This document shows, one piece after another, positions 4,732 to 25,339 of a stretch of DNA of 64,000 nucleotides (its first letter is position 1; the number at the start of each line of letters is the position of its first letter). The notes under the pieces were generated by a model. The model worked only from the letters and a program-made list of their open reading frames with translations, was not told where the DNA came from and did not search any database. Both the position numbers and the translations under genes were made by a program. Source of the DNA: Clostridia bacterium (GTDB lineage: Bacteria; Bacillota; Clostridia; Christensenellales; Aristaeellaceae); the NCBI GenBank assembly GCA_017519405.1, contig JAFWSH010000014.1:98192-162191 (forward strand). Direction: 5' to 3'.

Positions 4732-7560
4732 ATGCGGCGAGTGAATCGGTATTCACCGGCAAATCCCGGTTTGCACGACAGGAAGCCCTGTTCTGTTTGT
4801 CTGTGTGATGCAGCCGGGAAGAAACGCGGTGTTGGTGCAGGAACTGCCTGGCGCCAGGCCGGCTGGGGGGCTGGACTGCTGCTTGGCCAGCGAAGAACGG
4901 TTCCGGCTGTGACGATGGCCGGCAACGGCGAGGACAGCTACTCTTACACCTATACCCCCCGGGATCTGTTTGGCACAGACCTGATGGACGGAGACCAGAT
5001 CGTTTACCAGGCCCGGCTCACTGGCGTGGGTATGGACAAGACCACGGAGCCGTTGAGTGTGACGGTGGAAAACCTGGCTCCGGCGAACACAAAGGGGATT
5101 CAGACCAAGAACAACCCCTTCCTGAACCTGGTGACTCACGATCCCTTCACCGCTACTTATGAAGACGAAAAAGAGGATCTTACCCTCGATCTGAGCGGCT
5201 ATTTCAACGAACCGGACGGTGAGGAAATCACCTATACGGCGAAGGAGACTGGCAACGCCAAGCTCTTTGGCGAATTGACCATCGACGAGGATCGCCACAC
5301 CCTCAGGGCTGTCACCAAAGACCAGACCACGGATGCCAAGCAGGAGAGCACCATCCATATCACCGCCAAAGACCCGGAGGGGAAAGAAGCAACGCTGGAC
5401 ATTCCTGCCTCCCTCACAGTGCAGCGTGAGGTGGTCAAGAAAAACTACACGGTGAAAGTCAGTGCCGACACCAATCAGGTGAAGCCCAACGGGAACATCA
5501 AATTCACCGCGAAGCTCTATGACCAGAACGACAAGGAAGTGACAGACAGCAGCAAACTGGCCTGGGTCAATATGGGTACACTGTCCACCACCATGAACTA
5601 TGAACAGGAGAACAGGCAGCCCGAAACCCGGGAACTGAAATGGCAGCTGGAAGGCACAGCGTGGACCTGCGAATACGGTTTTCCTGCCAATTCCGGCACG
5701 CTGACCATCAGCGGCTGGAAGCCGGTGATCCAGAACATCCAGATCGGCACAAACGACTACCCCAAGACTTTCAGCACCGACAGCAGCACGCCGAGACTGA
5801 AGGAAGGCGCGGCTGTGCCGGCGTTCACGGACATCCGGCTCCATGATCCCATCACAGGGGAGACAGAGACAGACTACGAGACATATACGGCGGACTGGGA
5901 TACCACTGTAAACCTTGCAGAACTGGTGGAGGAGCCCGACGGTGAGGCGCTGTCCTTCCATCTGACGGAGCCCGCCAGCGGGAAGAACGAGGTTGTCACA
6001 GCTGTGGTGGATCAGACGACCGGCAAACTGACGCTGAGCACCAGAGGGGTTGACAAGACTGGCGGAACCACGGTGAACGTGGAAGCCCGGGATCCGGAGA
6101 AGAAGTCCTACATTTTCTCCATCCCTGTGGAGGTTACCAATGTCAGGGACACCATGGGAGGGTGGCACCTGTCTGCGTCCCTCACAGAACAAAACGGCAA
6201 GGCACACCCCGACGGGACAGCCCTGAACCAGGGAAGCATCTATAACCTGGTCCTCACGCTGCAGGATTCCGAAGACAATGAAATCAGGAACTACGACAAG
6301 CTGACGCAGCTGGTGAATTGCCTGAACGACAGCGGGCTGACCTTCCAGTTCAAGGCGGATAACGCAACACAGGCCGAACCCGTGGAACTGACCTGGAACA
6401 AGGAGAACGGCAAACTGACGGCGGAGTTCACCACGGGACAGAACAAGGGCGAATACAGCCTGGCGGGGAATGCCACGCTCCAGGGCGGCGACATCGAGTT
6501 CTCCCTGCAGGCGCCCTTCACTTGCAAGCTGGAGAATCTGCCCCCCACGCTGAACACTGAGACCTTCGAGGAGAAGGGATATGGCGAGACAGCCCAGCTG
6601 GAGATTGAACCGCTGCTCTGGCGCCGCAAGAACGACAGCGTGACGGAGATCGACCTGAAGGACCTCTTTACCGACGGCCCCAAGGATCCGCTGCAGTACT
6701 ATGCCGTCCGTCTCAGCGACCTGCTGGCGGCCGAGAAGGAGAAGGCGGCGGCCGGTGCCCAGGAGGGCACAACGATCCCCGAGCCTGCAAGGCCGGAGAA
6801 CGCCGAGGAGATGGGTCAGCGCTGGGGCAGCCTGGTGGGCAGCAAGGGGACTTTGCCCGCTTCCGCCATGATGGCGCTGGTGACAGGGGAGAATGATCCG
6901 GCGGACGAACCCGGGCACATTCTGAAGATCGACAACACCGCCGAAGGCAGCGGCGACCACGCTTACGTGCTGGTGGCTGAGGACCGGGACGGACAGAAAG
7001 CCTATGCCATCTACGACCAGCATGTCATCAGCCAGAAGACGGAGGTCCTCCGGTTGCTCATGTGGATCGGCCTGGGCATTCTCGTCCTCATTATCCTGCA
7101 GCAGCTGTTCTACTGGGTTTTCTACCGCGCCGCCTGGAAGAACAGCCACGGCACAGTGACCACTGTGGTGAACGGCCACAGCACGAACCATACCACCAAC
7201 TTCAGGCGCAGCGGCAAGGGTGAGATGAGGCTGTCCGACCTGCAGGTGACGGTGGGATGTGACCAGGCTATGGCCACTGCACTGAAAAAGGATATTGAAG
7301 GCTACAAACTCCGCCCCGGCAGAAACAACAACGTCATCGTGCGCAGAACCAAAGCGCCCGGCGCCAACTTCACGGTGGCTGTAAATGGGGCGGATATGGG
7401 CAGACACAAGAAGATGAACTGGCCTGCCGGCGGCGTCCTGACCATCAAAGGCACTGCCGCTCAGCCCGGGAAGAGCGTGGATGTCAGGCGGGTCAACATG
7501 CCGCAGGGCGCCGCGCCCAGACCTGCAGCCGCGCCCAGAGCCAACGCCCCCAGGGTGTGA
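4732..7560 (+). CDS. Ectodomain/one-TM/cytosolic-tail protein, probably 5'-truncated
   Basis: From about residue 62 onward this is a string of extracellular Ig/cadherin-like beta-sandwich modules (RDLFGTDLMDGDQIVYQA, VENLAP, DLSGYFNEPDGEEITYTA and similar). One transmembrane helix follows near residues 774-797 (WIGLGILVLIILQQLFYWVF). A cytosolic tail of about 145 residues ends in a Pro/Ala-rich linker and Pro-Arg-Val. The tail is homologous to that of the operon's last protein. The first 61 residues read like non-coding sequence, and no signal peptide is present although the repeats must be exported, so the true 5' end (signal peptide and N-terminal domain) seems lost. ATG at 4732 gives the longest frame and ATG at 4915 is the alternative; neither has a good ribosome binding site. 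Confidence 0.75.
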   Translation: MRRVNRYSPANPGLHDRKPCSVCLCDAAGKKRGVGAGTAWRQAGWGAGLLLGQRRTVPAVTMAGNGEDSYSYTYTPRDLFGTDLMDGDQIVYQARLTGVGMDKTTEPLSVTVENLAPANTKGIQTKNNPFLNLVTHDPFTATYEDEKEDLTLDLSGYFNEPDGEEITYTAKETGNAKLFGELTIDEDRHTLRAVTKDQTTDAKQESTIHITAKDPEGKEATLDIPASLTVQREVVKKNYTVKVSADTNQVKPNGNIKFTAKLYDQNDKEVTDSSKLAWVNMGTLSTTMNYEQENRQPETRELKWQLEGTAWTCEYGFPANSGTLTISGWKPVIQNIQIGTNDYPKTFSTDSSTPRLKEGAAVPAFTDIRLHDPITGETETDYETYTADWDTTVNLAELVEEPDGEALSFHLTEPASGKNEVVTAVVDQTTGKLTLSTRGVDKTGGTTVNVEARDPEKKSYIFSIPVEVTNVRDTMGGWHLSASLTEQNGKAHPDGTALNQGSIYNLVLTLQDSEDNEIRNYDKLTQLVNCLNDSGLTFQFKADNATQAEPVELTWNKENGKLTAEFTTGQNKGEYSLAGNATLQGGDIEFSLQAPFTCKLENLPPTLNTETFEEKGYGETAQLEIEPLLWRRKNDSVTEIDLKDLFTDGPKDPLQYYAVRLSDLLAAEKEKAAAGAQEGTTIPEPARPENAEEMGQRWGSLVGSKGTLPASAMMALVTGENDPADEPGHILKIDNTAEGSGDHAYVLVAEDRDGQKAYAIYDQHVISQKTEVLRLLMWIGLGILVLIILQQLFYWVFYRAAWKNSHGTVTTVVNGHSTNHTTNFRRSGKGEMRLSDLQVTVGCDQAMATALKKDIEGYKLRPGRNNNVIVRRTKAPGANFTVAVNGADMGRHKKMNWPAGGVLTIKGTAAQPGKSVDVRRVNMPQGAAPRPAAAPRANAPRV

Positions 7561-7566
7561 GCATCC

Positions 7567-7601
7567 GGCTGTCACCCCGGCGCTGTGCCGGGGTGACAGC
7601 C
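7567..7601 (+). promoter_or_regulatory. Perfect intercistronic hairpin after the first operon gene
   Basis: GGCTGTCACCCCGGC (7567-7581) pairs perfectly with GCCGGGGTGACAGCC (7587-7601) around a five-base loop, directly after the stop at 7560. The following bases (GCCCACAAAC) contain no T-run, so it should not terminate well. It probably protects the 3' end of a processed upstream message or attenuates transcription before the tubulin-like gene. Confidence 0.7.
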
Positions 7602-7661: not shown

Positions 7662-10600
7662 ATGCCAAGAGTCGACAAACTCAATGCGCCACTGTTGGTG
7701 GTGGGCCTGGGAGGCACCGGCGCGGACGGACTGCTACGTGTCAAGAGCCTTTTCCAGCAGCGCCTGAACCCGGAGATCATCGGCGGAGAAGAACAGGATC
7801 ATCCGCCCCGCACGGCGTTCCTGGAAATCGACACCGACTCCACTGTGCTCAGAAAGCGCTACCAGGGTGTTCGGATCAATCAGAACACCGAGTGGTTCAG
7901 CATGCACTGTGACATGAATCACATTCTGGGTGATGCCAACGGCACACGGGTCCCCATGTATTGCAGGGACTGGCTGAGCCCGGTCTTCTACACGGATCCG
8001 CAGATGAGAAGTGCGGCAATCGAGGGCGCCGGTACCTACCGCCAGCTCTCCCGCTTGATGCTCTTCAACAAGGCGGATGATCTGCACACAAAGCTTTCTG
8101 CCACGCTGCACCAGCTTGCTGCATGCCCTCAGGGCGCGCCTGTTGGCGAACGGAACGTCAACGTGGTGGTGATCACGGGCTTCAGCGGCGGCACGGGCTC
8201 GGGCGCTTTCCTGGACTTTGCCTATCTGCTGCGCCATGCAGCGGAGCAGCAGAATATCAGCTACACCCTGGAGCTGTACGTGGTGATGCCGGACATCTTT
8301 GTCAACAAGCTGGCCACCGGCGACGGGAAAAAGCGGATACAGTATGAGGCAAACGGGTTCGCGGCGTTGAAGGAACTGGATTACTGGATGGACTACGACA
8401 GCCGGCGGGAGCCCAATGTCCCCGACGAAGCTTTCACCGTGCAGTACAGCGACAGCCTTGTGGTGTCCTGGAACAGCAAGCCCTTTGATGATGTCACGCT
8501 GTTGTGCGGTTCCAACGTGGAGGGCACCATTCTCCAGAATTCCTACGACATTGCCCTGGACGCGGTGGCCCAGATGCTGCTGTTCATCATGGCGGATGAG
8601 TCTCAGCGTACCGGAACCGATGTGGTGATCAGCAACGGCGCCGATAACTCCACAGCGGATGACACCTACACCTTCCAGTCTGCCAAGAGCAACGAGCATG
8701 CCTTTATCCGTGCGGTGCCCCGGGACTTCCCCCATCTGTATGGCTACCGCTCCATTGGTGCCTTCAGCAATCTGTCCGAGCAGCACAACAAGGTGGTCAT
8801 CGAGACCAGCACCCTGCTGACGGATCTTACGGCGTTCTTCCAGAAGCCGGGCCGGATGCCGGTGATGGAGGGCAAGGACCCGGAGGAATTTGCTGAGCCC
8901 TTCAGGACCAAGATCAGCGATCTGATGGCGGCTTTTGTTGCCCAGACGCCCTACCCGGCAGAGGTCACCGACGGTCTGGCACCCTATGACATGCAGTCCC
9001 TGCGGAACCAGGATGAGGAGCTGGCCCCCCACAAGGTGCAGCTGCCCAAATGGATCAAGGACACCATCACGGAGAAGCCCAAGTGGGTGGAAGCCATTCA
9101 GGCGGATCTGCTGGACTTCTTCAAGCGGACGGCGGCGGAATACGTCCGCAACCGGGGGCCCCAGGCGCTGGAGGTTATGCTGTCCGACACAGACCACGGC
9201 TTCCTCCGCTGGCTCCAGGATCGGGCAGAGATGTACAGCGGCGAGAAGAGCCAGTACGCGAATGCCTACAATGCGGCTCTGCAGAACGCTTCCCAGCGTT
9301 TTGTGGATTTCAAGGGACAGAGCGGCATCATGGGTCTGCTGAGGCAGTCGGGTCTGTTCCGGGATTACCTGGGCTTCCTGAAGCAGGCCTTTGAGTCCTA
9401 CCAGTATCAGGTGTTCTATGCGGCTGCGGAGGAGGCAGTCCGGGCCGTCCGGACCACCGTTGCCACCCAGGTGCTGGAGGGGAGCCTGGCTCAAACGATC
9501 CGTGCCCTGAAGGAGCTGGAACAGGAATACACGCAGCTGTCTGCCGACATGCCCCAGAGCACGGCCATCCCGGGCCGCATGGAGAGCATCCGCAAGGATA
9601 TCAGCCACGCCTATACCGATGAGCACCTCCAGGAGCAGCTGAGGACGGACGCGCTGACGCAGATCTCGGAGATTGCCGTTATGGAGGGCCTGGATCACGA
9701 GACGGCGGTGGAGGAACTGCACGACAGGTTCACCACAGTCCTCAACCGGGCTTTCTTCACCATCAACAACGCCACGCTGCAGGACGAGCTGGCCGGCATC
9801 GCGACCGGCACCGTTCAGAACTACGCTGCCACCACGATTGCCCCCAACCTTGAGATCGGCGCACAGGTGCTCTTTGCCAACCACACGGATTATCATGTGA
9901 CCAAGGGCAATACCGCCTTCATCTCCTTTGTTAGTGTGCCCCGGAATCAGACGGACGTGAAGCAGGGCATCCGGAACTACATCACCCAGAACGACAAGTA
10001 CAGCGGGTCTGTCTTCAAAAACAGTCTGGTGGACGACCAGGTGTTCTGGCTGAATGTGGCGGCGGGTCTGCCGCTGTGCGCCTACCGTTTCCTGGCGGAG
10101 TATGAGCGGGTGTATGAACAGAACAAGGAACGGCCCGGCCTGCATCTGATGCTGGCAGATGACGCCATGCTGGTGCGGCGGAACGAGCGCCGCAGCATCA
10201 AGAACGACTGGACGCTGCTGCCCAGCCCCAACCCCTTCAGAATCCTCCACACTGGCAGCCAGCCCGTGGCACCTGAGCTGCAAACCGCCTGGGCGGCTAC
10301 GGAACACTGCCTGTCGGAGATTGAGAAGAGCGGCACCATCGCCATGGATCTCAGCGACCCTGCCAAGCCCAAGTGCAGCATTCATATCTACATGGATGGC
10401 GGCAGGATGATGGGCGTGGACAAAATGACCGCAAAGGTGTCGGAAGCCATCCAGAGCACCTCCTCCCCCGAGGACTGCCTGACAAAGCTGGAAGCCATCA
10501 GGACCGATCATACGGTCTGCAAGACTTACCAGATCATGGATCCGCACCAGACAGACCAGCCCCAGGCCAATCACCAGATTGCCATCTTTGCCGGGAAGCT

Positions 10601-11261
10601 CGGCCTGGACACCCAGGTTGCCGACCAGAAGGAGCAGGCGTTCCGGGAGCTGTCCTACTGGATTCTGTCCCGCAGACCCGAGCTGATCCAGGTGCTGACC
10701 AGACAGGTGGAGCTGGACGGTGTCCTCAACGCGGCAATCCGCAAGGAGCAGGAGGAAATCGCAAAGCGCAGGAAACTGGCTGAGGCCATCCGGACGGTGG
10801 CGGAGATGTATCTGTTTGAGCGGCTCTCGAACCAGCGCATCAACATCCTGTACCTGAACGACCGGGATGAGCTGGAGACGGCGGGCCAGAGGAATGTCCT
10901 CTTTGACCGGGAGAAGTACTGGGCTCACGAGGAATTCTGGGCCAATTACATTCCGCTGGTGATCCGCATGGTGGAGTGGTACGCCGAGCAGGACCGTACC
11001 CTGGAACCCTTCAGAAGCATCGAGGCCAAGGTGAAGGAGCTGTTCGAACAGGCGAAGAACCTGGAGGACACCCCGGCGGACAACGCCAAGGCCAAAGCGC
11101 TGTTGGAGCGCACGGCGGCGCTGGTCAAGGACATGGAGGACAGGGTCATCGACTTCAAGGTTAACCAGAAGGAACTGCCCAAGGAAGCCTACGACAAAGC
11201 GCTCTTTATCATGAATGAGATGATCAAGACGTATCGCGGCCTGGGCACAATCTTCATGTAA
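7662..11261 (+). CDS. Bacterial tubulin-like GTPase (Tubulin_2-type)
   Basis: This 1199-aa protein opens with a nucleotide-binding beta-alpha unit (LLVVGLGGTGADGLLRVKS, residues about 11-29). Near 174-180 it carries SGGTGSG within VVVITGFSGGTGSGAFLDF, matching the G-box loop of the tubulin/FtsZ superfamily. Both match what is known of the Tubulin_2 family of large tubulin-like proteins found beside other NTPases. The remaining 800 residues are long helical, partly coiled-coil segments that could mediate assembly. No membrane segment is seen. ATG at 7662 follows GGAAGGGAG. It is the likely polymerising or switching core of the operon. Interestingly it begins MPRV, while three operon membrane proteins end in PRV. 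Confidence 0.8.
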   Translation: MPRVDKLNAPLLVVGLGGTGADGLLRVKSLFQQRLNPEIIGGEEQDHPPRTAFLEIDTDSTVLRKRYQGVRINQNTEWFSMHCDMNHILGDANGTRVPMYCRDWLSPVFYTDPQMRSAAIEGAGTYRQLSRLMLFNKADDLHTKLSATLHQLAACPQGAPVGERNVNVVVITGFSGGTGSGAFLDFAYLLRHAAEQQNISYTLELYVVMPDIFVNKLATGDGKKRIQYEANGFAALKELDYWMDYDSRREPNVPDEAFTVQYSDSLVVSWNSKPFDDVTLLCGSNVEGTILQNSYDIALDAVAQMLLFIMADESQRTGTDVVISNGADNSTADDTYTFQSAKSNEHAFIRAVPRDFPHLYGYRSIGAFSNLSEQHNKVVIETSTLLTDLTAFFQKPGRMPVMEGKDPEEFAEPFRTKISDLMAAFVAQTPYPAEVTDGLAPYDMQSLRNQDEELAPHKVQLPKWIKDTITEKPKWVEAIQADLLDFFKRTAAEYVRNRGPQALEVMLSDTDHGFLRWLQDRAEMYSGEKSQYANAYNAALQNASQRFVDFKGQSGIMGLLRQSGLFRDYLGFLKQAFESYQYQVFYAAAEEAVRAVRTTVATQVLEGSLAQTIRALKELEQEYTQLSADMPQSTAIPGRMESIRKDISHAYTDEHLQEQLRTDALTQISEIAVMEGLDHETAVEELHDRFTTVLNRAFFTINNATLQDELAGIATGTVQNYAATTIAPNLEIGAQVLFANHTDYHVTKGNTAFISFVSVPRNQTDVKQGIRNYITQNDKYSGSVFKNSLVDDQVFWLNVAAGLPLCAYRFLAEYERVYEQNKERPGLHLMLADDAMLVRRNERRSIKNDWTLLPSPNPFRILHTGSQPVAPELQTAWAATEHCLSEIEKSGTIAMDLSDPAKPKCSIHIYMDGGRMMGVDKMTAKVSEAIQSTSSPEDCLTKLEAIRTDHTVCKTYQIMDPHQTDQPQANHQIAIFAGKLGLDTQVADQKEQAFRELSYWILSRRPELIQVLTRQVELDGVLNAAIRKEQEEIAKRRKLAEAIRTVAEMYLFERLSNQRINILYLNDRDELETAGQRNVLFDREKYWAHEEFWANYIPLVIRMVEWYAEQDRTLEPFRSIEAKVKELFEQAKNLEDTPADNAKAKALLERTAALVKDMEDRVIDFKVNQKELPKEAYDKALFIMNEMIKTYRGLGTIFM

Positions 11262-11357: not shown

Positions 11358-13733
11358 ATGGGAATGATTCAGGTTGCAGGGGCGTGCAAAAAAACGGTGT
11401 TCAGGAAAATCCAGACGCATGTGGAGGAGAAACTGAACCAGACGGAGCGCAAGTCCATCAGCTTCAGGATGATGGATGAGCTCAGCGTGAGCACCCGGCT
11501 GCTGATTCAGGAGCTGATTAACCAAGCGGTTGCGGTGCAGGACACCGAACGCAGACTCGACCTGATCATGGTATGCGATGCCGAGGGGCTTGCCGGCAGG
11601 GGAACTGAGGATGTGATCAATCTGATTGAGAAAATCAGGAACCCTGACCTCGGCCTTTTCCATGTCTCCGTCACACTGATCTGGATGACCGGCGAATACC
11701 AGGAGGGGAGCAGCAAGGCACGGAATGCGAGCCTGGAGAAGCTGGCCCGGAATCAGTCCATCGCCCGTGTGGTGATGCTGACAGACCGATGCTCCAACCT
11801 GGCGTCCTCTGATGAGAACCTGCGGATCCAGGCTGCCGCCCTCGTGATCAGCGCTTATCCCCACCTGACAGCCACCCAGTTTGAGCCGGGACTGTACACC
11901 GTGGGCGTGGGCAGTCAGGAGATCACGCAGGAGAACGTGGCGGATTACGCCAGATCAAAAGCCGCCGAAGCCATTATGAGAAGGAGCCTGACCCTCAAAA
12001 ACAAGCCTGAGATGGAGATGCTCTGCGCACGGGCCTTTGACACAGACGACCGTGCCATGAGCCTCAAGGAGCATGTACAGGAGATCGTAGCGTCGGTGTG
12101 CGTGACCAATTTCTGCTACATCAGCGGAGAGGGTGAGCACCACTCCGGGGCGGAGAAGAATCCCCAGATGGATGTCCTGCTGCAGGATAAAGTGGACGCG
12201 TGGTCCCGGAAGATGAAAGTGCTGATGGCGCGGATGCTTTATCCGGAGGACGCGCGGGACTTTTTCAAGAGCGATGAAGCCAGCCAGTTTGAGATGATGC
12301 TCAGCGGAATCCGTGCCGAATTCGGAGGCGGATTCAACGCCGCCCTGCGTTTCCCGTTATTTGGGGAGGGCAAAAAAGCTGGCCTGGCATACCAACAGTT
12401 CATGAGCGAACGGCAGCGGAATGTGGCTGCATGTGTGGAGGAGCTTTGCCGCAGGTGGCGGGCAACCCGCAGTAACCTGGAGGAGTATGCAAGACAGCTG
12501 ATCGCCAGACGGGACACGCTGCTGAGCACATACCAGTGTGAACCTGCCTTCGCTGACCGCTGTGAACGGCTCGCCCAGACATATATGAAGGACATCCGGG
12601 ACCGTATTGTCTCAAGAATCACGCCAGACCAGAACGATCTGATTTCATGGATTGACGAGCAGGAGGATGGCGACGGCCGCCTGAACGATACGGTGATCCG
12701 GAAGCTTCTGGACTGGGTTCAGGAGCAGGTGATGACTGAGTCCCACACCAGTTTGTTCAGCGATATGGCAGCCTGGGATCTTTCACAGATCAACAGCCGG
12801 GTGCTGTCGCCCATCGGCAATGAGGCGCGGGTCAGCCTGGCCTGCCGCAGGCATGCCGAGATGCCTGCCAGCCGGACCGTCTGCTGCTTCCTGCCGGCTT
12901 TCCTGCCGGATCTGGCCAACAGAAACATCCAGATGTTGGGGACGGAACCCAGGATGATTCGGGTGAACAACCAGAATTACAGGAATATCGAGGCAGTGGC
13001 CCTGGTCTGGCTGGCCGCATCACAGGACATGGAGAAAGAGGCAAAAAACCTCACAGCCTTCGCGCCGGATATGGACGATGACAACCCGGCTGTACACAGG
13101 AACGCTGAGCAGCAACCGGATGTCCTGCAGGACGAGAAACCGGAGGAGCAGGAGCCTGCCGGGAAGAGCGGGCAGGACCAGGGGAAGACAGCCCGGAGCC
13201 CTTGGGGGCTTCAGATCAGCGGCCAGACGGTTTCCATCAACTGGCCGGACAGAACAATAAAGGAAGTCAATATCCAGCTGGACGGAAAAAAAGTTGCCAC
13301 CATCCGGTTTGAAGCGATGGATTACAGCAAAGAGATTCCGCAGGCGGGCACGCCGGGGAAACACACCCTGCGAATCATCAACCCGGACAACGGAGGAGTG
13401 CTGGATGCTGTCGAGTTTTCCGGCAAAAAGGACATCCTCCAGTACGGCAAGAGAAAGACAAAGACCGTCAGTTTGAGCCAGGACGCCGTGCTGGAGACCT
13501 ATGAGTTGTATGTCTATGATGTTGTGCCGGGAGACGGCGCCGGCGGCCAGGGGACACCTCCGCCCTTTGACAGACTCCTGATGCAGCATGGGCGTGACGC
13601 GGTAGCGCTGGGCAACCCCAAGAAAATCGGGCGTGCGCCATATACCTGGTTTGTGGCGGAGATCGCAGAGGTGCCCTATGAGCTGTCGGTGACGGAGGAA
13701 CTGCTGTCCAACTATGAGATTATCAGGGTCTGA
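11358..13733 (+). CDS. Unrecognised 791-aa component of the tubulin/GTPase operon
   Basis: I do not recognise a family. Residues 1 to about 190 look like an alpha/beta domain (RRLDLIMVCDAEGLAGRG, LFHVSVTLIWMTGEY, ARVVMLTDRCSNL) that could resemble a vWA or tubulin-partner fold, without a clear metal-binding DxSxS motif. Residues about 200-480 are helical with coiled-coil character. An acidic, Glu/Gln/Pro-rich linker lies near 560-620. The C-terminal 170 residues are beta-rich (LQISGQTVSINW, VNIQLDGKKVATIRF), Ig- or FHA-like. There is no signal peptide or membrane helix, so it is cytosolic. ATG at 11358 follows GAGGAGG. Its place between the tubulin-like protein and the GTPase suggests an adaptor or scaffold role. 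Confidence 0.8.
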   Translation: MGMIQVAGACKKTVFRKIQTHVEEKLNQTERKSISFRMMDELSVSTRLLIQELINQAVAVQDTERRLDLIMVCDAEGLAGRGTEDVINLIEKIRNPDLGLFHVSVTLIWMTGEYQEGSSKARNASLEKLARNQSIARVVMLTDRCSNLASSDENLRIQAAALVISAYPHLTATQFEPGLYTVGVGSQEITQENVADYARSKAAEAIMRRSLTLKNKPEMEMLCARAFDTDDRAMSLKEHVQEIVASVCVTNFCYISGEGEHHSGAEKNPQMDVLLQDKVDAWSRKMKVLMARMLYPEDARDFFKSDEASQFEMMLSGIRAEFGGGFNAALRFPLFGEGKKAGLAYQQFMSERQRNVAACVEELCRRWRATRSNLEEYARQLIARRDTLLSTYQCEPAFADRCERLAQTYMKDIRDRIVSRITPDQNDLISWIDEQEDGDGRLNDTVIRKLLDWVQEQVMTESHTSLFSDMAAWDLSQINSRVLSPIGNEARVSLACRRHAEMPASRTVCCFLPAFLPDLANRNIQMLGTEPRMIRVNNQNYRNIEAVALVWLAASQDMEKEAKNLTAFAPDMDDDNPAVHRNAEQQPDVLQDEKPEEQEPAGKSGQDQGKTARSPWGLQISGQTVSINWPDRTIKEVNIQLDGKKVATIRFEAMDYSKEIPQAGTPGKHTLRIINPDNGGVLDAVEFSGKKDILQYGKRKTKTVSLSQDAVLETYELYVYDVVPGDGAGGQGTPPPFDRLLMQHGRDAVALGNPKKIGRAPYTWFVAEIAEVPYELSVTEELLSNYEIIRV

Positions 13734-18400: not shown

Positions 18401-20419
18401 TATCTGTCCGGATCCCTCAGCCAGCTGAGGGATGCCCGGCTGCTCATTGTCCGCCAGAACATCGAGGAGGACATGCTTGCGCTGCTGCAGGCCTCCAAGG
18501 ATGTCCGGAACAAGACACAGGTCCGGGATCTGGAGACCTATGCCAACTGGTACCGTGAGATGCGCCGGCCCGGCTACGAGCGTCTGACTGCGGTTACGGA
18601 GGCTCTCTTCAGGGAAAAACTGTCGGACTGCGCCGAGGATGCCAAGGCACAGGTAGGGGTTGTTCAGCTTTTCTGCAATGCCATGGCGGACGACAAGGGC
18701 ACCCGGGAAAATGTGGAAGGGCTGCTGTTTGGCAGATTGCAGGGCAAAAAGCTGAGTGAGCTGATCAGAAATCCGGAAGAGCTGGAGCCCATCCGTGTCT
18801 ACTGCAGCCTGCGGCGTGACCGGCGAAGTCTGGCTTCGAATGCGCTGAGCAAAAGCATCGAGATCAGCGGCCAGGATGGCCTGACCATGGAGGACCTGCC
18901 CTGCGTGATCCAATTCGGAGAATATGCGGGATTGGAGGATATCAGCAGCGACCTCATCAAGGTGCTGCGGGAAGTGGCGGACAGGCCAATGCCGGAGGAT
19001 GTGCGGTCGCAGCTGGCTGTTTACTGCAGGGATCATGGACCTCAGGTCCAGAAACTGGTGATGGACTGCATGAGGCAGCGCGTGGCTGATCCGCAACGGG
19101 AGGACCGGACAGAGGCCGTGACGGATTTGATGGTGCTGCTGCAGGCGGCCGAGGTCAAAACCGAGACTAAACAGAAATATATACTTGAGACGCTGCAGGA
19201 CCTGGTGGAACACCCCGGCCATGTGGAACTCAACCGGGAGACGGTTTCCTCCCTGCTGGAGGCAGTGGCGGAACTCCCGAAGGATCGGATTAAAAAACCC
19301 ATCATGCGGCTCTTTGAGGCCTATTGTTCCGCGGAAACATTTCCCCTCATGGACAGTGTGGCAGAAAAACTGGAAATCAGGGTGGAGGAATGTGGACAGG
19401 ACCAGGCCGGATGGAGGTCCTATTTCCTGACGCGCATCTCGGACGGTGTGCTGGAGGAGCTGCGCAACGGCGCTGCGGACGTCAAAACCCTCCAGAGTAA
19501 GGCCAATGAGGATCCGCAGATCCGGCAGATGGATGATCTGATTGAGGAACTGCGGTTCTCCCGCAGCAGCATAGCCGGCCAAGTGGTGGAGAAGAAGCGG
19601 CAGGAGCTGCGGGCTGCCTGTACAGACGCTGTGAAAAAGGACAACAGCCTGCAGAACCCGGAGATCCTGTCCGAGGTGATCAGCAGTCTCAACAGCGCAC
19701 AGGACAGCGGAATGTTCACCACCTGCCTGGTGGAGGCGGCATTCCGGCATATTCCGGAGCTGCTGGCCGACGACGAGCGCTTCAGCAGCCTGGTGCGGAG
19801 TGAGCAGGCTATCCGCAGCGTCAGACGGTGCTTTCAGCAGCTGGATGTCCGGGAAAATGCGCAGATGCAGGAGAAGCAGCGTGTCGTGGAGGCTGCCTGC
19901 ACCGTGATGAACCGGATGGATCGACTGGCTGACAAGGGCATAACGCCCGGCAGGTTGATCAGTGAACTGTCGGGCATGGGCGAGATCAATCTGCCCGGCT
20001 GGGCTGCAGTTCGGGAGGCAGTCTGTCAATACGGGCACGACAAGCTGGAGGCGGCGGGCGCCGAGGCGCGACTGGTTCCGCATCTTTTGTACAACCTGGA
20101 GTCCACAGGGGATGAGCCCAAGGTTCAGTGGCTGCGCTTCCTGTCCGACGCACTGCCCCTGCAGGGCAAAGGCGGCTGGGAGCAGGCGAATCTGTGGAAA
20201 TCCACAGAGAATGTCCATGGCAAGCTGGCGCTGTGTCTGCAGTTGCTTGGCCAGGACGGGGCGGAGCAGCTGAACAAGTCCTTCGTCTCCTTCCTCAACG
20301 CCAGTGCTATCGGCATGAACGCAAGACGCGGGGCCAGATTCAAGGAACTGAAGAAGCATAGTGCACAGATCGGTGAAAACGGTGGTGTCATACTGACCTG
20401 GCTTCTGCAGAACAAATAA
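15443..20419 (+). CDS. Giant GTPase-associated protein (GAP1-N2/GAP1-M-like)
   Basis: The 1658-aa protein begins with a compact alpha/beta domain (KFEQYAYGRGEGGFGS, then FILSGSCWVS and MHSMIVPPGEETSLETAL) that resembles the N-terminal domain of GTPase-associated protein 1 (GAP1-N2). The remaining roughly 1400 residues are almost entirely helical. Internal repetition is visible: ERLLKNGQQFRTQI and ERLLKGSQAYSGPI occur about 230 residues apart, each preceded by AWE/ARSW-type segments. It therefore looks like an alpha-solenoid scaffold. No catalytic motif or membrane helix is evident. It starts 70 bases after the GTPase gene with GGAG before the ATG. It probably regulates or tethers the GTPase. 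The family assignment is by pattern only. Confidence 0.75.
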   Translation: MKFEQYAYGRGEGGFGSAASNGAELLLQGVTGEDVRNQARFSKWDDERMVMELQAFPMGDGSESEFILSGSCWVSKNTRPYGYMHSMIVPPGEETSLETALEFLLCSDDFLAPDTIPDAIDGKIYLQTREVSDEKIRKVWESVAPMASEKVLQELNLHAFLARYWQTCWERLVWLGDRRQTFTPLFVVATSPERFREGDSPEKDTVLIDGVAFFLRHVLPHLPPAVKNMASVSFSSMDTAPDAQRGSACLVCVPTGSAINHAPVYRCFSDSALDNRVDDVVLRIGQEMLENRLPESYLRIQNLENRCFTAERDFDLIYRLVNTEIMLEDIASEQMEEEELQWQMAACLRELTSVSPEALKGEADGYTVQGLLKDDGLTEDEIHQVLFPLELQLAGLMAEKGTKYQADVFRVCTELWKSIPSRCGKLNAEERRQLTDAWEKVLTRTWDELERSPSMPILTAAGDGAISPELRSLLERLLKNGQQFRTQITAENRTTLDQLLLLLLRCRVESHSDLGDALLNKLMEDVDKDSGLLKPAHYLELLKKVLAESKKNGAVVPPEFREKAVGDLASMANRQLQLLREQGDVDGETLYQVYALDRAAEVLCQNGYAGLESLELSLAREISRSGDDYQPACYAKCLKKWRTIGERYKQMPEPQKTLTAAWETVLARSWQPLDWQEDIPVMQVAAMGPTDTAAVRLLERLLKGSQAYSGPITPARSGILDTLFKLVQRCRTEAQSAPDSRLNELGDQLMDYLADHCSREDQLLTPSRYLDQLDEGKPLKDSAREAMLSDLERLLKEHAELVRGQGIQDNRDALEELRFQNDLEARLSKPPMRLPEDVRTRLMADLERMLPVWCTERDRDFEAALYRAMLERAISLPKRSAKLSKETAEVLADAYDKCLTCFYSECGEDRCPMAVMMEQDPQKTIPWEGNVAGAVLESQMIPAGAEKMVDRLIQLRKSEATQKTADLYREILVSGSYNVPEDVFPAYLSGSLSQLRDARLLIVRQNIEEDMLALLQASKDVRNKTQVRDLETYANWYREMRRPGYERLTAVTEALFREKLSDCAEDAKAQVGVVQLFCNAMADDKGTRENVEGLLFGRLQGKKLSELIRNPEELEPIRVYCSLRRDRRSLASNALSKSIEISGQDGLTMEDLPCVIQFGEYAGLEDISSDLIKVLREVADRPMPEDVRSQLAVYCRDHGPQVQKLVMDCMRQRVADPQREDRTEAVTDLMVLLQAAEVKTETKQKYILETLQDLVEHPGHVELNRETVSSLLEAVAELPKDRIKKPIMRLFEAYCSAETFPLMDSVAEKLEIRVEECGQDQAGWRSYFLTRISDGVLEELRNGAADVKTLQSKANEDPQIRQMDDLIEELRFSRSSIAGQVVEKKRQELRAACTDAVKKDNSLQNPEILSEVISSLNSAQDSGMFTTCLVEAAFRHIPELLADDERFSSLVRSEQAIRSVRRCFQQLDVRENAQMQEKQRVVEAACTVMNRMDRLADKGITPGRLISELSGMGEINLPGWAAVREAVCQYGHDKLEAAGAEARLVPHLLYNLESTGDEPKVQWLRFLSDALPLQGKGGWEQANLWKSTENVHGKLALCLQLLGQDGAEQLNKSFVSFLNASAIGMNARRGARFKELKKHSAQIGENGGVILTWLLQNK

Positions 20420-20473: not shown

Positions 20474-21163
20474 GTGACAAGACAACAGCTGCCGGTCAAT
20501 TGTGTGCAGGCAGTACTGGCGCTGATAAAGCTGATCCTGATCCTGGTCTTCCCCATGCTGGCTGTAGGCCTTCCCCTGGGCAGATTTGAGCAGATGGCGG
20601 GTATCGACGTGTTCATGCTCAATCGGCTGGGAAACCCTATGGGGATCCTGTATCTGTCCCTGTACGCGGTCCTTTTGCTGAGCAGCTTCGGAATGTTCCG
20701 CTCCTTCAGCGGGCTGACGGCCCTGGTGGTGCTTGCTCTTGAAATCGGCTTCATTGCTGCTGCGTGCACACAGGTGTCCACAACCTGGCTGACCAACATG
20801 GTGCTTTCGGATCCTCAGGTCCGGTCGGTCTACAACAACACAAACAATCTGGCAGCCTGGTTGAAAACCGCGATTCCGGGCTTCAGTCTTGAGGGTGTGC
20901 TGAGCTGGCTGTCCGCGACCTTTCCGGATCGCTTCGGCTCCATGGATGCCGCCGCCCTGGCGGAGAATATCTCCCGCCTTATGTCGGATATTCCCAGGTA
21001 TGCGGGGACGGTGGAGGAGATTGCCCGCAGGATCCTGTTGAGGGCCACGCTGCCGGTGGAGATCTCCATGATCCTGACAACGCTCTACGGAATGTTCCAG
21101 TACATCCCGGTATCTGTCGGCGGGGTAAACATTGGCGGATCAGACCGGTTGGGTTTCCGCTGA
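20474..21163 (+). CDS. Four-helix membrane protein, paralogue 1
   Basis: This 229-aa integral membrane protein has helices at about residues 5-30, 56-75, 80-105 and 185-210, with an extended loop between the third and fourth. It starts at a GTG (20474) preceded by AGAGGGG. The first-helix pattern (VQAVLALIKLILILVFPML) and the final SMILTTLYGMFQ clearly match the two following genes, so the three arose by duplication. It differs from them in having a longer third loop and a short tail ending in GGSDRLGFR, without the Pro-Arg-Val end. Role unknown; possibly the membrane channel or anchor subunit of the operon. Confidence 0.75.
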   Translation: MTRQQLPVNCVQAVLALIKLILILVFPMLAVGLPLGRFEQMAGIDVFMLNRLGNPMGILYLSLYAVLLLSSFGMFRSFSGLTALVVLALEIGFIAAACTQVSTTWLTNMVLSDPQVRSVYNNTNNLAAWLKTAIPGFSLEGVLSWLSATFPDRFGSMDAAALAENISRLMSDIPRYAGTVEEIARRILLRATLPVEISMILTTLYGMFQYIPVSVGGVNIGGSDRLGFR

Positions 21164-21249
21164 TCACACTGATCCGGAGAAAACCCGCTGATGCTGACGC
21201 CGTTCAGCCCATGAAGGCAGAACCCATGAAATGGCAGGAGGTGTGCGCC

Positions 21250-21846
21250 ATGTACAAGCCCAATAGTCCCATCAATGTACTTCAGACGATCATTGCCGTT
21301 GTGAAGCTGGTCATCTTCTTCGTCATGCCCATGATACGGCTGACCTTCTTCGGCTTTACCGTTCCGCTGCTGGGAGACTTCATCGGTTTGCGCGGTCTCG
21401 ACCTGAACAACTTCGGGGCGTGGCTCTGCATCCTCCCCATGGTGCTGTATCTGGTGATGCTGGCATTCAGCGTGGGGCCGCTGCAGCAGTACAGCCTGAT
21501 TCCGGCCGCGGTTGCCCTGGTGATTGAAATCATCATCATTGCCTCCGCCGGCAATCTGCTCCCGATTGACACGGTGGCTGCCTGGCTGAAGACCACGTAC
21601 CCCAGCTTCGCCGGCGTGGCGGATGTGGGCAGCGGCATCGCCAAAATGCTGCTCCGCCCCAGCACCTCCTTCATCGTCTCCATGGTGCTGACGGTGCTCT
21701 ATGGCGTGTTCGCTGTCGTCCCGGCGTCGGATTATATCATGGGCATGCTTGGCCTGGGCGGCGGCGTGCGCCACACGGGCGGCACCGGCACGAGCGGCAG
21801 AAGCAGCACGGGCGGCCATGGCGGTGCCCGGACACCCAGGGTATAA
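21250..21846 (+). CDS. Four-helix membrane protein, paralogue 2, ending in Pro-Arg-Val
   Basis: A 198-aa protein whose ATG at 21250 is set by GGAGGT seven bases upstream; the in-frame ATG at 21211 is less likely. Four hydrophobic helices are visible (IIAVVKLVIFFVMPMI, ILPMVLYLVMLAFSV, IPAAVALVIEIIIIA, FIVSMVLTVLYGVFAVV). The MPMI, VGPLQ, IPAA.AL and SMVLT.LY patterns are shared with the next gene. The C-terminus is a 30-residue Gly/Ser/Thr-rich linker ending ARTPRV. No known family. Its location suggests a membrane subunit of the tubulin/GTPase system. Confidence 0.75.
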   Translation: MYKPNSPINVLQTIIAVVKLVIFFVMPMIRLTFFGFTVPLLGDFIGLRGLDLNNFGAWLCILPMVLYLVMLAFSVGPLQQYSLIPAAVALVIEIIIIASAGNLLPIDTVAAWLKTTYPSFAGVADVGSGIAKMLLRPSTSFIVSMVLTVLYGVFAVVPASDYIMGMLGLGGGVRHTGGTGTSGRSSTGGHGGARTPRV

Positions 21847-21948
21847 ACATTTCCGGGGCAGCGCTACAGCCGTGGGAATAAACGTCCCTGCAGCCTCGTT
21901 CTTATGACAGGAAGCAAACCATCACTGAATCATGAGGAGGAAATGACC

Positions 21949-22497
21949 ATGAACACAAACCAAAACTCCATCCTGAACGTCGGCCAGGCAGTCGTTGCCA
22001 TCGCCAAGTTGGTGATGTACTTCACCATGCCCATGATTGCCCTCGTCGTGCCGGTGATTGGCGAGGTGTTTGGCTTGAAGGGACTGGATCTGTACAACTG
22101 GGGCCATGTGGTGCTCTGTCTTGTTGCCATGATCCTGTATGTGGTGATGCTGATCTTTACCCTGGGACCGCTGCAAAAGATCAGTGTGATCCCCGCTGCG
22201 GCAGCGTTGGTGGTTGAGATCATCATCATGTCCACCGCCAGCGGCCTGATCCCCATCAGCGAATGGGTTACCATTCTGAATCAGCACATTCCGGCAGAGT
22301 ATGCCAGCTATGTCTCGATGGCGGAGGCGATCCTGAAGACCTCCATCCGGCCTGCAACAGGTCTGATCATCTCCATGGTCCTGACGCTGGTCTATGCCGT
22401 CCTCCAGTTCTTCCCCATCATCAGCATTCCGGGCAGCTCCGGCAACAACTCCCGTCCGACGCCTCCGGCAGGCGGCACCTTTACGCCCAGGGTTTGA
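21949..22497 (+). CDS. Four-helix membrane protein, paralogue 3, ending in Pro-Arg-Val
   Basis: A 182-aa protein closely similar to the preceding gene: VVAIAKLVMYFTMPMIAL, then GLKGLDLYNWG, FTLGPLQKISVIPAAAALV and IISMVLTLVYAVLQFF. The ATG at 21949 sits eight bases after GAGGAGG; an ATG two codons earlier is too close to the ribosome binding site. The last 20 residues are a Ser/Pro/Gly linker ending FTPRV, the same terminal tripeptide as the preceding protein and the first operon protein. No catalytic residues are evident. Confidence 0.75.
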   Translation: MNTNQNSILNVGQAVVAIAKLVMYFTMPMIALVVPVIGEVFGLKGLDLYNWGHVVLCLVAMILYVVMLIFTLGPLQKISVIPAAAALVVEIIIMSTASGLIPISEWVTILNQHIPAEYASYVSMAEAILKTSIRPATGLIISMVLTLVYAVLQFFPIISIPGSSGNNSRPTPPAGGTFTPRV

Positions 22498-22522
22498 TTG
22501 ACTGCCGAAAGGATTGTTCCTG

Positions 22523-25276
22523 ATGAAGATGCACCAAAGGGTATGTCTGGTCCTTCTGGCCGCAGTGCTGTTGTCGGTCTGTTTTGCTGCGCCGGCAGAG
22601 ACGCCGGTGGAAGGGGACATTGACCTCTATGTGACAACCGCGGCTGTGGAAGGCCGCACGGATTCTCCCGATGTGGATCGTGTGCTGTGGACCCTGCGCT
22701 ACTTCTATCCCGACTATATCAGCGTAAACCTGCACGTGGTTGTGCTGGATGGGCAGGAGGCGCGGGAGACATATCATGGCCTGCTGCCGGAGTATCTCGC
22801 TCAGCCTGCAGACGCGAAGGCTGCGAACGGCGGGGAGACCGTGGACTTGGCGCAGGTGCTGGAAGATGCACGCCCGGAAAGGACACGCCTGCTGGTTTTC
22901 TGCGGTGAGGAGCAGGATCCGCTGACGCTTTTGGGTTACGCTTCCCGGGGGAACGTTCCTGTCCCCTTTGCGGCGATCTCTCCTCTGCCCATCCCGGATG
23001 GGGAGCCGCGGGAGACCGAGAGAAAGACGCCCGGCAATCACAGTGGGGAAGGCGTGACAGCAAGGGCTTCAGCCTCCAGCGACCAGGAGGCAGCGTTTCC
23101 CATGGTCTGGCTCCGGGAGAAGGATGGCAGCCTGCTGGAGGCAGCGCTGGATGCCTATCAGCTGTTGGAGCGCGGGGATTTCCCCCAGATCTGCAGCCTG
23201 GAGCCTGTGGAGAACGGACTCATTCACCTGGCACCGCCGGAGGACCGGCCGCAGAGGCTCAACTGCATCATCGTGGAGGGCACGCCGGAAGGACAGACCG
23301 ACAGTGCGCTTTTCCCCCGGCAGGAGACAGCTGACTGCATCACTGTTTACGCTGGTGCAGCGGTTGAGGAAGAACAGGTGATCCGGGTTGGATCAACGAC
23401 AAAAGTCCTGGTCAACAGGGTGCTGGAGCCATTCCAGATGACGGTCAGCGGTCCGGATGAAAAGGAAACCTTCAGAAGCACGGACCACCCAGCCTTAACA
23501 GTGGGCATGGTGAAAACCGACGGGGAAAACAGCGCTTTCTTCGGAGAAACACAGTACTGGACCATCGGTTCACTTGTCGGTGAACAGCAAACACCGGAGA
23601 CACGATGGGCATCAGGGGAGGACAGTGCGCCGAGCGTCACGCTGGACCTTACCCGTCTGACCACCGGGGATTGGCCTGTGGCGGTCACAGCCAATCTGGA
23701 TGAGTGCCCGGGGCTGGACTACAGCTGTGTGATCAACCTGCAGGTGAAGAATGACGCGCCCGCCATCAAGGGGGAGCAGACTAGAACTCCTGAGGCGGAC
23801 TGGTGGCTGGACACGCCTGTGATGCCGAAGGAAGAGACACAACCTGCCGTCTTCCCGCTGAGGGATTGCTTCACGGACGATGGCGGCGCTGAGAATTTGA
23901 CTTTCCACGTTACCCCTGAGGCGGCCTGGTACAGCGTCGCCGATGGTACGCTGACGGTTGACCTGGAGCATATTCCCCGGGACGAGATGCAGACCCTCAC
24001 AGTGACAGCGGAGGACAGCGCCGGACAGAAGAGCGAGGAGCTGACCTTCCAGCTGACAGCCCGGTCGGTGCGGGAAGAACTTAAGAAGGCCGAAATCACG
24101 CTGATCCCCACGGTGCAGGAACGGATCCTCAGCACAGAATTCACGTACCAGCTGCCCGAGAGCCTGCAGAGCTACCTGAACCGGCTCGGGGAGGAACAGG
24201 CGGCATTCCTGGCTGCCCTGACACCCTCGCTGACTCTGGGTGACGAGAGCCTGGAAGTGACGATACCTGACACCTGGAATGGGCTGAAGTGCATCTATTC
24301 AGTGGCGGACAAAGGTCCATTGCGCACCGGCAGCTATACACTCACCGCGGCGGTTTCCCTGGATGAAGGAGCCGACGAAAGCACAAGGAAGGAAGATATC
24401 ACTGAAAGCACAAGGAAGGAAGACATCACTGTTGAGAATGTGGGCCCGTCCCTGGAGGTAGCGAGCCCTTTGCCGGTCTCGCTGCTGATTCCCGGACCGC
24501 TCTTCCTGCAGAGGGATGTGCCGGAAGCAGAGCAGCAGAAGGCGTATCCGCTGGGACAGCTCATCAAAACAGAGGCGCTGGATAAGATTACGGTAACCCC
24601 AAAGGAGGGGGATATGCGGCTCTTCCGGAATGGCAGCGAGTGGCTGCTGACGGATGAGACAGAGGAACAGATGCCGGAGGGCTGGAAGGCCGCGGACCAG
24701 CTGGTCTGGGATACCACCAATGGGGGAGAGGCGCCCACCCTCATCATTCGCCACCGGGGTTACGGGGAGACCAAACAGACGCTGGAGTTCAAGGATCAGG
24801 ACAACGGCCAGGCGAAGCTTACGCTGACAATTACCGCACTCTACCGGAATGATGCCATGCTGCGGCTGATCCTGTGGATTGTCATCGGCATAGTGGCGGC
24901 GGTCATCGTTGCAGCGGTCATCCGACAGCTGCTGAAGCCCCGCTTCACGCCGGACAGCAAACTGCAAGTCCGGTTCGGACAGTATAAGGGTATGCTGCCG
25001 CTGGTGAGCTGGGGCAAAAAGGGTATCAGTCTGACCGATGTGTTGATCTATACCGGCATCCCCTATGCGGGCGAGCTGCCCCCCAAACTCAACAAGCTGA
25101 TGCTGATGCCGGGAGGGAATAAGTGCGGCCTCATGCTGTGCAATGCCGCCAGGTGTGACGTCATGGTGACCAAGGATGGTGCCGATCAGGACAGTAACAA
25201 GATCCGGATCGACAGCGGCAACGAGGTGAAGATTGGTCTGGAGGACGGCTCCAGCCTCATCCTCAGCATCGACTGA
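22523..25276 (+). CDS. Secreted-ectodomain membrane protein, last gene of the operon
   Basis: The 917-aa product has a signal peptide (MKMHQRVCLVLLAAVLLSVC, likely cleaved after AAPA). An N-terminal alpha/beta domain of about 150 residues (IDLYVTTAAVEG, ETVDLAQVLEDA, TRLLVFCGEEQ) may be a degenerate vWA domain without an obvious metal site. Several Ig/cadherin-like modules follow, then one transmembrane helix near 779-800 (LRLILWIVIGIVAAVIVAAV) and a cytosolic tail of about 117 residues. The tail matches that of the operon's first protein (SLTDVLIYTG with RLSDLQVTVG; KLMLMPGGNK with YKLRPGRNNN). The ATG at 22523 lies ten bases past AAAGGA. It looks like the intact version of the receptor-like architecture that has lost its front half in the first gene. 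Confidence 0.8.
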   Translation: MKMHQRVCLVLLAAVLLSVCFAAPAETPVEGDIDLYVTTAAVEGRTDSPDVDRVLWTLRYFYPDYISVNLHVVVLDGQEARETYHGLLPEYLAQPADAKAANGGETVDLAQVLEDARPERTRLLVFCGEEQDPLTLLGYASRGNVPVPFAAISPLPIPDGEPRETERKTPGNHSGEGVTARASASSDQEAAFPMVWLREKDGSLLEAALDAYQLLERGDFPQICSLEPVENGLIHLAPPEDRPQRLNCIIVEGTPEGQTDSALFPRQETADCITVYAGAAVEEEQVIRVGSTTKVLVNRVLEPFQMTVSGPDEKETFRSTDHPALTVGMVKTDGENSAFFGETQYWTIGSLVGEQQTPETRWASGEDSAPSVTLDLTRLTTGDWPVAVTANLDECPGLDYSCVINLQVKNDAPAIKGEQTRTPEADWWLDTPVMPKEETQPAVFPLRDCFTDDGGAENLTFHVTPEAAWYSVADGTLTVDLEHIPRDEMQTLTVTAEDSAGQKSEELTFQLTARSVREELKKAEITLIPTVQERILSTEFTYQLPESLQSYLNRLGEEQAAFLAALTPSLTLGDESLEVTIPDTWNGLKCIYSVADKGPLRTGSYTLTAAVSLDEGADESTRKEDITESTRKEDITVENVGPSLEVASPLPVSLLIPGPLFLQRDVPEAEQQKAYPLGQLIKTEALDKITVTPKEGDMRLFRNGSEWLLTDETEEQMPEGWKAADQLVWDTTNGGEAPTLIIRHRGYGETKQTLEFKDQDNGQAKLTLTITALYRNDAMLRLILWIVIGIVAAVIVAAVIRQLLKPRFTPDSKLQVRFGQYKGMLPLVSWGKKGISLTDVLIYTGIPYAGELPPKLNKLMLMPGGNKCGLMLCNAARCDVMVTKDGADQDSNKIRIDSGNEVKIGLEDGSSLILSID
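24377..24430 (+). repeat. 27-bp tandem duplication inside the last operon gene
   Basis: Two adjacent 27-base copies (24377-24403 and 24404-24430) differ at one base. They encode the nonapeptide ESTRKEDIT twice, keeping the frame. The position is a linker between ectodomain modules, so it is probably a recent neutral slippage event. Confidence 0.85.
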
Positions 25277-25300
25277 GGACGCTGAGATCCTGAAAACAAC

Positions 25301-25339
25301 AAACGACAGACGGCGTATGACATGCCGTCTGTCGTTTTT
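25301..25339 (+). terminator. Terminator of the nine-gene operon
   Basis: A 14-bp stem (AAACGACAGACGGC, 25301-25314, with GCCGTCTGTCGTTT, 25324-25337) around a nine-base loop runs into a TTTTT tract at 25335-25339. It follows the last stop at 25276 by 24 bases and closes the operon. Confidence 0.9.

Follow-up and report, generated by a model that had tools for sequence, protein, structure and literature searches.

A nine-gene tubulin and GTPase operon of a Clostridia bacterium, very probably a variant of the membrane-associated FtsZl1-vWA-DO-GTPase class

What kind of system is encoded by an operon that combines a tubulin-like protein, a P-loop GTPase and a set of membrane proteins? We addressed this question for nine genes of a Clostridia bacterium, located in a 64,000-nt stretch of DNA (the window; assembly GCA_017519405.1, contig JAFWSH010000014.1, positions 98,192 to 162,191 of the forward strand), on contig C4 of a 2.27-Mb draft genome of 37 contigs that is 80.3% complete. 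The operon very probably belongs, as a variant from the Clostridia branch, to the membrane-associated FtsZl1(Tubulin_2)-vWA-DO-GTPase class. The mechanism that we propose for it, with receptors, tails, paired tubulins and a GTPase switch, is itself doubtful, and class and mechanism blended into one account make the explanation that we favor with modest confidence.

Nine open reading frames (ORFs) of the plus strand fill positions 4732-25276 with short gaps between them, as seen in the ORF list of the window, and a hairpin with a 14-bp perfect stem and a T-run (25301-25341) closes the series. This hairpin was read by eye from the sequence, and the program terminator scan reached only 23999. The single nine-gene operon proposed in an earlier note on this DNA therefore stands, as does its start at 4732, whereas the end given for it, 25339, falls inside the terminator, the last gene stopping at 25276. 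The features, with the names used here, are the following (TM, transmembrane segment; Ig, immunoglobulin).

4732..7560, plus strand: R1, an orthologue of vWA receptors, truncated at the 5′ end, with Ig-like repeats, one TM, a cytosolic beta-rich domain and a tail ending in APRV
7662..11261, plus strand: TUB, an FtsZl1/Tubulin_2 protein of 1199 aa with GLGGTG and SGGTGSG intact (PF13809 and alignment)
11358..13733, plus strand: O3, probably a tubulin paralogue that lacks the GTP signature, its middle helical and its C terminus FNIII-like (profile-profile comparison)
13768..15372, plus strand: GTP, a zinc-ribbon DO-GTPase2 with an aromatic-basic C-terminal tail; its ORF opens upstream at 13714
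15443..20419, plus strand: GAP, 1658 aa, in the GAP1 position and unmatched by GAP1-N2
20474..21163, plus strand: M1, a four-TM protein with a short C terminus ending in LGFR
21211..21846, plus strand: M2, a four-TM protein with a tail ending in TPRV
21904..22497, plus strand: M3, a four-TM protein with a tail ending in TPRV
22514..25276, plus strand: R2, a paralogue of R1 with a signal-like N terminus, a large ectodomain and one TM, in which vWA was not found
25301..25341, plus strand: intrinsic terminator (stem 25301-25314 / 25324-25337, 9-nt loop, T-run), read by eye

TUB matched the Tubulin_2 profile (PF13809) with an E value of 1.1e-46. GTP matched DO-GTPase2 (PF19993) with an E value of 1.8e-7 and 31.5 bits, above the cut-off of 27, and holds the Walker A motif GCTAAGKT, TKCD and two CxxC pairs (CPYC and CPNC), which confirmed the Tubulin_2-like protein and the zinc-ribbon P-loop GTPase named in the earlier note. 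The other seven products had no Pfam match above the cut-off, NCBIfam gave nothing near a cut-off for the eight operon proteins submitted, and neither Rfam nor a tRNA scan gave any match in the window. Among relatives, the G[GS]TG signature was present in 99 of 103 TUB rows (duplicate loci included, and with patterns slightly different from those of the O3 scan described below). A sequence search of PDB returned no credible relative of TUB. The possibility of a phage, plasmid or division tubulin was rejected: no phage record matched TUB at an E value of 1e-5, and the three plasmid records that did (Meiothermus, Allomeiothermus and Thermus) were distant and covered 24-26% of the query.

Gene sets of this kind are already in print. 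In the consulted sections of Makarova and Koonin 2010 (PMC2875224), FtsZl1-vWA-GTPase operons with secreted or TM proteins form a predicted membrane-remodelling machine, filament formation and membrane remodelling being predictions of the paper itself, and the FtsZl1/Tubulin_2 proteins are counted among the most diverged tubulins. The consulted sections of Kaur 2020 (PMC7159879) describe DO-GTPase/GAP1-N2 systems with tubulins, extracellular vWA proteins and FNIII proteins, a near-membrane role and extracellular ligands. The earlier note had considered the coupling of tubulin and GTPase to a membrane and extracellular module to be new; this claim fails because both papers, in those sections, predicted such coupling, and the label of a new system was rejected, the class having been published in 2010 and 2020. 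With the 2010 system the operon shares the FtsZ-like Tubulin_2 domain (TUB) and the diverged P-loop GTPase (GTP), and with the 2020 system a DO-GTPase with an N-terminal zinc ribbon and a large protein directly downstream of it. The vWA protein that the majority, not all, of the 2010 operons have is missing from the window operon, and so are the two vWA genes of the firmicutes form of the 2020 system, there being none in this copy. We found no experimental paper on the class in open-licence PMC listings (bioRxiv lying outside their coverage).

To what extent do the genes keep company elsewhere? Tubulin_2 matches occurred in 47 of 300 genomes of the same family (31 above the cut-off) and in none of the 11 other genomes of the window's genus on the list. 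An order-wide search gave 5/396. Thirty-nine regions, mostly around the stronger matches, were fetched and searched with profiles built from the window proteins, and this yielded 22 family tubulin loci (fetched loci with a tubulin, the window not counted). The order R-TUB-O3-GTP-GAP was found in 12 of them, 11 within one region each and that of G296 across two adjoining regions; TUB genes stand in tandem in two of these loci, V6, a multi-TM vWA protein, intervenes in one, and M and R2 follow GAP in nine. This Clostridia module of four-TM proteins and a second receptor is new. The three window copies, M1-M3, are 26-40% identical in tblastn, which agrees with the three paralogous four-helix proteins first noticed. 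As for the other ten loci, the contig ends after O3 or GTP in two, four (L034, L036, L037 and L046) have another tubulin type and O3, GTP and GAP were not found there, and the remaining four consist of contig fragments, a broken copy and a remnant on contig C20 of the window's own genome. These relatives of the same family come from Clostridia, Clostridiales or Eubacteriales records, many of rumen or gut origin. In a second set, the best 80 of 319 relatives in a TUB-alignment scan of named genomes (named loci, in part the same as the family loci), the order in 55 loci, from Bacilli, is R-TUB-T2-V6-p215-GTP-pGAP; Pfam searches gene by gene in one of these, L085, gave two vWA proteins, DO-GTPase2, GAP1-N2 (E = 1.7e-42) and GAP1-M. 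Thus, related gene orders recur in both sets, and profiles support the tubulin and GTPase calls as described above; these were the two points whose failure would, according to the earlier note, have refuted its reading.

These distribution data bear on two rival explanations. According to the first, which Kaur 2020 offers for the class, the operon is an immune or conflict system, normally off, in which an invader triggers the tubulin/GTPase complex to deploy an effector. Its patchy spread (31/300 family genomes above the cut-off, 0/11 other genomes of the genus matched) is in keeping with this, as is the filing of the class among conflict systems in the consulted sections of PMC7159879, and a possible effector is seen in L036 (10439-16452), where a multi-TM protein beside the other tubulin type has a BSP-type metallopeptidase match (E = 2.8e-7). 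However, the window operon has no recognisable effector, PADLOC over all nine proteins gave as its sole match to a known defence protein a weak DpdK (E = 0.034), PHROGs gave no match for the seven proteins submitted, the phage records lack a match to TUB as stated above, and no defence test was found in open-licence PMC listings. We regard this explanation as possible, short of an even chance. The second rival, due to Makarova and Koonin 2010, is a membrane-remodelling or envelope-organising cytoskeleton whose receptors anchor it to the wall. Here FtsZl1, vWA, GTPase and membrane proteins are the very gene set of the consulted sections of PMC2875224, the gene order is kept in 55/80 named loci, and the conserved tails described below are candidate membrane-side tethers, but its scattered occurrence in the genus and family of the window speaks against it; we hold it, too, as a tentative alternative.

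Several observations were made around these loci. In the loci with the other tubulin type, the tubulin is followed by a protein of ~700 aa with TMs and one of ~1300 aa with several N-terminal TMs, and L046 gave a sub-cut-off peptidase match. Tandem tubulin genes precede O3 in L040 (1203 and 1208 aa) and L049, and the tubulins of L049 and L052 have zinc-ribbon-like CxxC repeats at their end. One Clostridia contig (L057, 3756-15631) encodes four V6-like multi-TM proteins, one of which runs against the rest; the C terminus is DLW, DEW or GEW in three of them and DDWDQ in the fourth. A short gene that diverges from the window operon just upstream of it (3882-4541, minus strand) matched WYL weakly, with an E value of 0.007 that did not reach the cut-off, and the system of G144 has a clear WYL-WCX gene upstream. 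A conserved upstream WYL regulator was rejected, as phmmer with the G144 protein retrieved only that protein and its duplicate locus.

What is O3? The earlier note had left this 791-aa protein unrecognised, and it indeed has no Pfam match above the cut-off, while profile and fold comparisons point to a probable tubulin. O3 occupies the place that T2, which we take as the second tubulin of Kaur 2020, has in the Bacilli operon. T2 of L080 scored 22.4 bits against Tubulin_2 (E = 8.5e-5), below the cut-off of 27, T2 of L085 had no Tubulin_2 match in Pfam, and profile-profile comparison of T2 with TUB gave 96.3% for the family alignment and 81.7% for that of Bacilli. The O3 profile was compared with 13 other alignments from related operons, T2 among them and some overlapping. 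It matched T2 at 92.8% (E = 4e-7) over 208 columns of the central part of each protein, compared with 26.7% for p215, 10.2% for TUB and at most 1.9% for the rest. The G[GS]TG signature occurred in 0/56 T2 and 0/28 O3 rows (some from duplicate loci). Fold evidence comes from a family member in L041, not from the window protein itself: its model (predicted local distance difference test score, pLDDT, 77.5) had 44 tubulin or microtubule entries among its top 50 PDB matches, with phage tubulin PhuZ among them (E 0.02-0.09), chain identity being judged by title and length, and 43 of the 44 had probabilities of 0.85-0.99. Contactin FN domains were also among the PDB fold matches, and Pfam fn3 had no match above the cut-off in the operon proteins. 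Judging from profiles and models, the O3 proteins are probably tubulin paralogues that lack the GTP signature and carry FNIII-like domains, and such a probable inactive tubulin is new for the class; in our reading, O3 fuses the second tubulin and the FNIII component of Kaur 2020 in one inactive tubulin. O3 as a vWA protein or GTPase was rejected, having no profile support and no vWA entry in the PDB top 50; a vWA-named phage fold stood at rank 19 (probability 0.69) among the viral-library matches. A protein search with O3 in 60 genomes, the window's own included, matched its own genome only.

GAP had been called GAP1-like, a claim that we could not uphold: its basis is gene position alone, and Pfam gave no GAP1 match. 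GAP1-N2 was absent from 13 family GAP proteins, that of the window included, and hhalign of GAP against GAP1-N2 gave 0.1-1.5%, with weak alignments of N terminus to N terminus over 179-314 columns. The identity of GAP with GAP1-N2 was rejected on this profile comparison, and because the GAP1-N2 domain was looked for and not found, the window operon is not filed as a GAP1-N2 system.

R1 and R2 are paralogues within a large receptor family (profile search), of which 11/22 members have vWA and one has a YtkA match. Twelve relatives in the R1 position have a hydrophobic start followed by a motif of the metal ion-dependent adhesion site (MIDAS) type, DxSxS in 11 and DMTAS in L045. In the window R1, neither signal peptide nor vWA was seen. 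Its alignment with the orthologue in G151 (1235 aa) begins no earlier than residue 424 of the latter, which corresponds to window position 4930, and the first ~66 codons of the ORF are therefore non-homologous; residues 1-421 of the G151 receptor had no match in the window's own genome (80.3% complete). The close relative L091, whose TUB is 52% identical over 171 residues, has a receptor of 2010 aa with a signal-like start and vWA (E = 1.2e-10). Since the missing part is unmatched in its own genome and relatives keep the head, the vWA head is absent from this copy, through deletion or misassembly. That the first receptor lacks both the signal peptide and the vWA head which its relatives have is a new observation. 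R2 has, by eye, a hydrophobic N-terminal stretch and a single hydrophobic segment near its end. Two single-pass receptors with Ig/cadherin-type ectodomains had been described, and the topology holds for R2; R1 is 5′-truncated, and no Ig or cadherin domain of Pfam came above the cut-off.

These data raise a third explanation, that the system in this genome is a decaying remnant. It would account for the loss in R1 of what L091 keeps, and also for a second tubulin on contig C20 (L033, C20:49001-69000; gene at 10113-12586), 55-64% identical to TUB, which is frameshifted and stops near residue 830. On the other hand, the other eight genes of the operon are open, the motifs of TUB and GTP are intact, and the draft is 80.3% complete, so that a misjoin near 4930 is possible. 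The missing V6 is uninformative here: the genome has two V6-profile matches that cover just the vWA stretch and a sole PF00092 match on a different contig, and since a search of nine genomes gave a full-length V6 in only one, its absence is no sign of decay. We consider decay unlikely. No O3, GTP or GAP match was present in 60 kb fetched around the C20 tubulin, and the strand opposite to it carries an M-like ORF ~5 kb away (17371-18033 of L033).

The operon products were also compared in their C termini, of which those of R1, V6 and M are predicted to be cytosolic by hydropathy alone. In the window, R1 ends in APRV, M2 and M3 in TPRV, O3 in IIRV and M1 in LGFR, and R2, TUB, GTP and GAP end differently. 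Acidic-aromatic ends (DDFDF, GSDDF, DDEW) are found on R1, V6 and M of several rumen relatives; in G151, R1 ends in GPSI and M in HPML, and V6 of G091 ends in KNA. An aromatic residue was present among the last three in 56/56 V6 proteins of the named loci, from 18 clusters (380-560 aa, E < 1e-20, a filter that leaves out a 338-aa V6-like ORF of L107 ending in VMLS). Without the rumen locus the count was 55/55, compared with 11.7 expected from composition, and in Clostridia it was 8/9 for V6 (2.1 expected), 8/11 for M (2.8) and 8/13 for R1 (2.7). The window is outside both sets, M1 ending in GFR and M2, M3 and R1 having no aromatic there. Named-locus proteins other than V6 and the receptors rarely end in this way (TUB 3/73, T2 3/57, p215 1/56, GTP 1/63, pGAP 0/34). 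Covariation of tails was evaluated by 5000 label permutations with one protein per family and system, leaving out M1 and M2 of the window, three extra V6 of G221 and a receptor fragment of G267. For the last 3, 4 and 6 residues, respectively, P values were 0.056, 0.0036 and 0.0054 for R1-M (n = 11), 0.06, 0.10 and 0.14 for M-V6 (n = 6), 0.14, 0.07 and 0.03 for R1-R2 (n = 10), 0.75, 0.74 and 0.45 for M-R2 (n = 10), and 0.03, 0.04 and 0.14 for R1-O3 (n = 12), and at least 0.82 for R1-TUB and R1-GTP. Covariation is thus significant for R1-M (on four residues) but for neither M-V6 nor R1-V6, and because shared ancestry remains in this permutation test, it is suggestive only. Short, putatively cytosolic tails, mostly aromatic-ended, on receptor, four-TM and multi-TM vWA proteins, with -PRV on three window proteins, are new, and a term search of Kaur 2020 (PMC7159879) for C-terminal tails or an inactive tubulin found neither. 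GTPase C termini, read from the alignment, are aromatic-basic in 11/13 family rows, the window included, and could be membrane-binding segments; the last residue is hydrophobic in 0/13. The GTP tail spans window positions 15290-15369, and family tails include SFFQRLFGKKQ, GLFGWRKNK and GGFFGWLFRRR.

How might such a system work? Receptors with signal peptides (R1 with its metal-binding-type vWA in relatives, R2, and V6 in some relatives) would sense the outside of the cell or the wall, and the short cytosolic tails of R1, V6 and the four-TM proteins would tether a cytosolic assembly to the membrane. This assembly would be GTP-driven TUB paired with O3, the latter, without a GTP signature, regulating or capping TUB turnover as an inactive partner, while the zinc-ribbon DO-GTPase and its partner GAP would act as the switch. 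An extracellular signal may thus be passed to the cytosol, as we infer. The anatomy suits an assembly held at the membrane: receptors face outward and tails point inward, one tubulin is active and the other probably not, and the GTPase has a large protein at its side. A bolder version, which we consider improbable, is an integrin-to-cytoskeleton-like coupling in which vWA/Ig receptors and tetraspans are clamped by a tail code to a co-polymer of active tubulin and inactive tubulin-FNIII, gated by the DO-GTPase; the code would shift by lineage, from -DDF/-DEW in several rumen Clostridia to -PRV/-PSI/-PML in the window and near relatives and a terminal or near-terminal Phe in Bacilli.

In favor of the explanation as a whole, class and mechanism together, are the Pfam matches of TUB and GTP, the recurring gene orders, vWA in half of the receptor family, the O3-T2-TUB profile links, the fold matches of the O3 family with their weak E values, the missing signature in T2 and O3, and the aromatic ends of V6. 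Several results weigh against it. The window's copy has no vWA protein (Pfam, profile and own-genome searches), and the receptor that carries vWA in relatives has lost it here. GAP showed no significant similarity to GAP1-N2, which was found in 0/6 family genomes, the window's own included, and by the same search in 2/2 Bacilli genomes. The R1-V6 tails do not covary (n = 6; P = 0.63, 0.78 and 0.86 for the last 3, 4 and 6 residues), and the aromatic-end statistic is not specific to V6 because 64/68 receptors of the named loci also have one among their three C-terminal residues, where their ends (EYLV) are taken as a putative folded strand. With respect to O3, the link to T2 is confined to the middle (O3 columns 314-529), outside the domain presumed to bind nucleotide, and a comparison confined to the N-terminal stretches gave 15-17% for O3-T2 and 0.1-2.5% for O3-TUB. 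The model of the window O3 is poor (pLDDT 46.3), and for the L041 protein the rank 1 PDB match is IniA (probability 0.38), all fold matches of any kind have E values of at least 0.001, and tubulins start at ~0.02. Tubulin is over-represented in PDB. For the last two reasons, the tubulin call on O3 is held at probable. The probable inactive tubulin partner and the conserved membrane-protein tails turn a sequence-only prediction into testable ones, on the protein that recognises the tails and on a joint assembly of active and inactive tubulin at a membrane receptor.

How, then, does the operon compare with known systems? It is a close relative of both published predictions and would work in a similar way. 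As in the operons of Makarova and Koonin 2010, there is an FtsZ-like protein of ~1050-1200 aa, a distinct P-loop GTPase, secreted or TM proteins and, in relatives, a vWA receptor; unlike them, the window copy is without vWA and adds O3, M1-M3 and R2, and none of its nine genes had an OmpA-type or protein-kinase match in Pfam. With the firmicutes tubulin theme of Kaur 2020 it shares the zinc-ribbon DO-GTPase, a large protein in the GAP1 position, a tubulin, membrane receptors and a putative FNIII-like component, but GAP is unmatched by GAP1-N2, the second tubulin is apparently fused to an FNIII-like part (O3), four-TM proteins and a second, vWA-less receptor are added, and this copy has no vWA. 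The Paenibacillus/Brevibacillus operon (L085, L080) differs in having V6 and p215 between T2 and the GTPase, clear GAP1-N2 and GAP1-M, and no M or R2 labelled, but resembles the window operon in its order, R-TUB-T2 followed later by GTP-GAP, with O3 standing at the site of T2.

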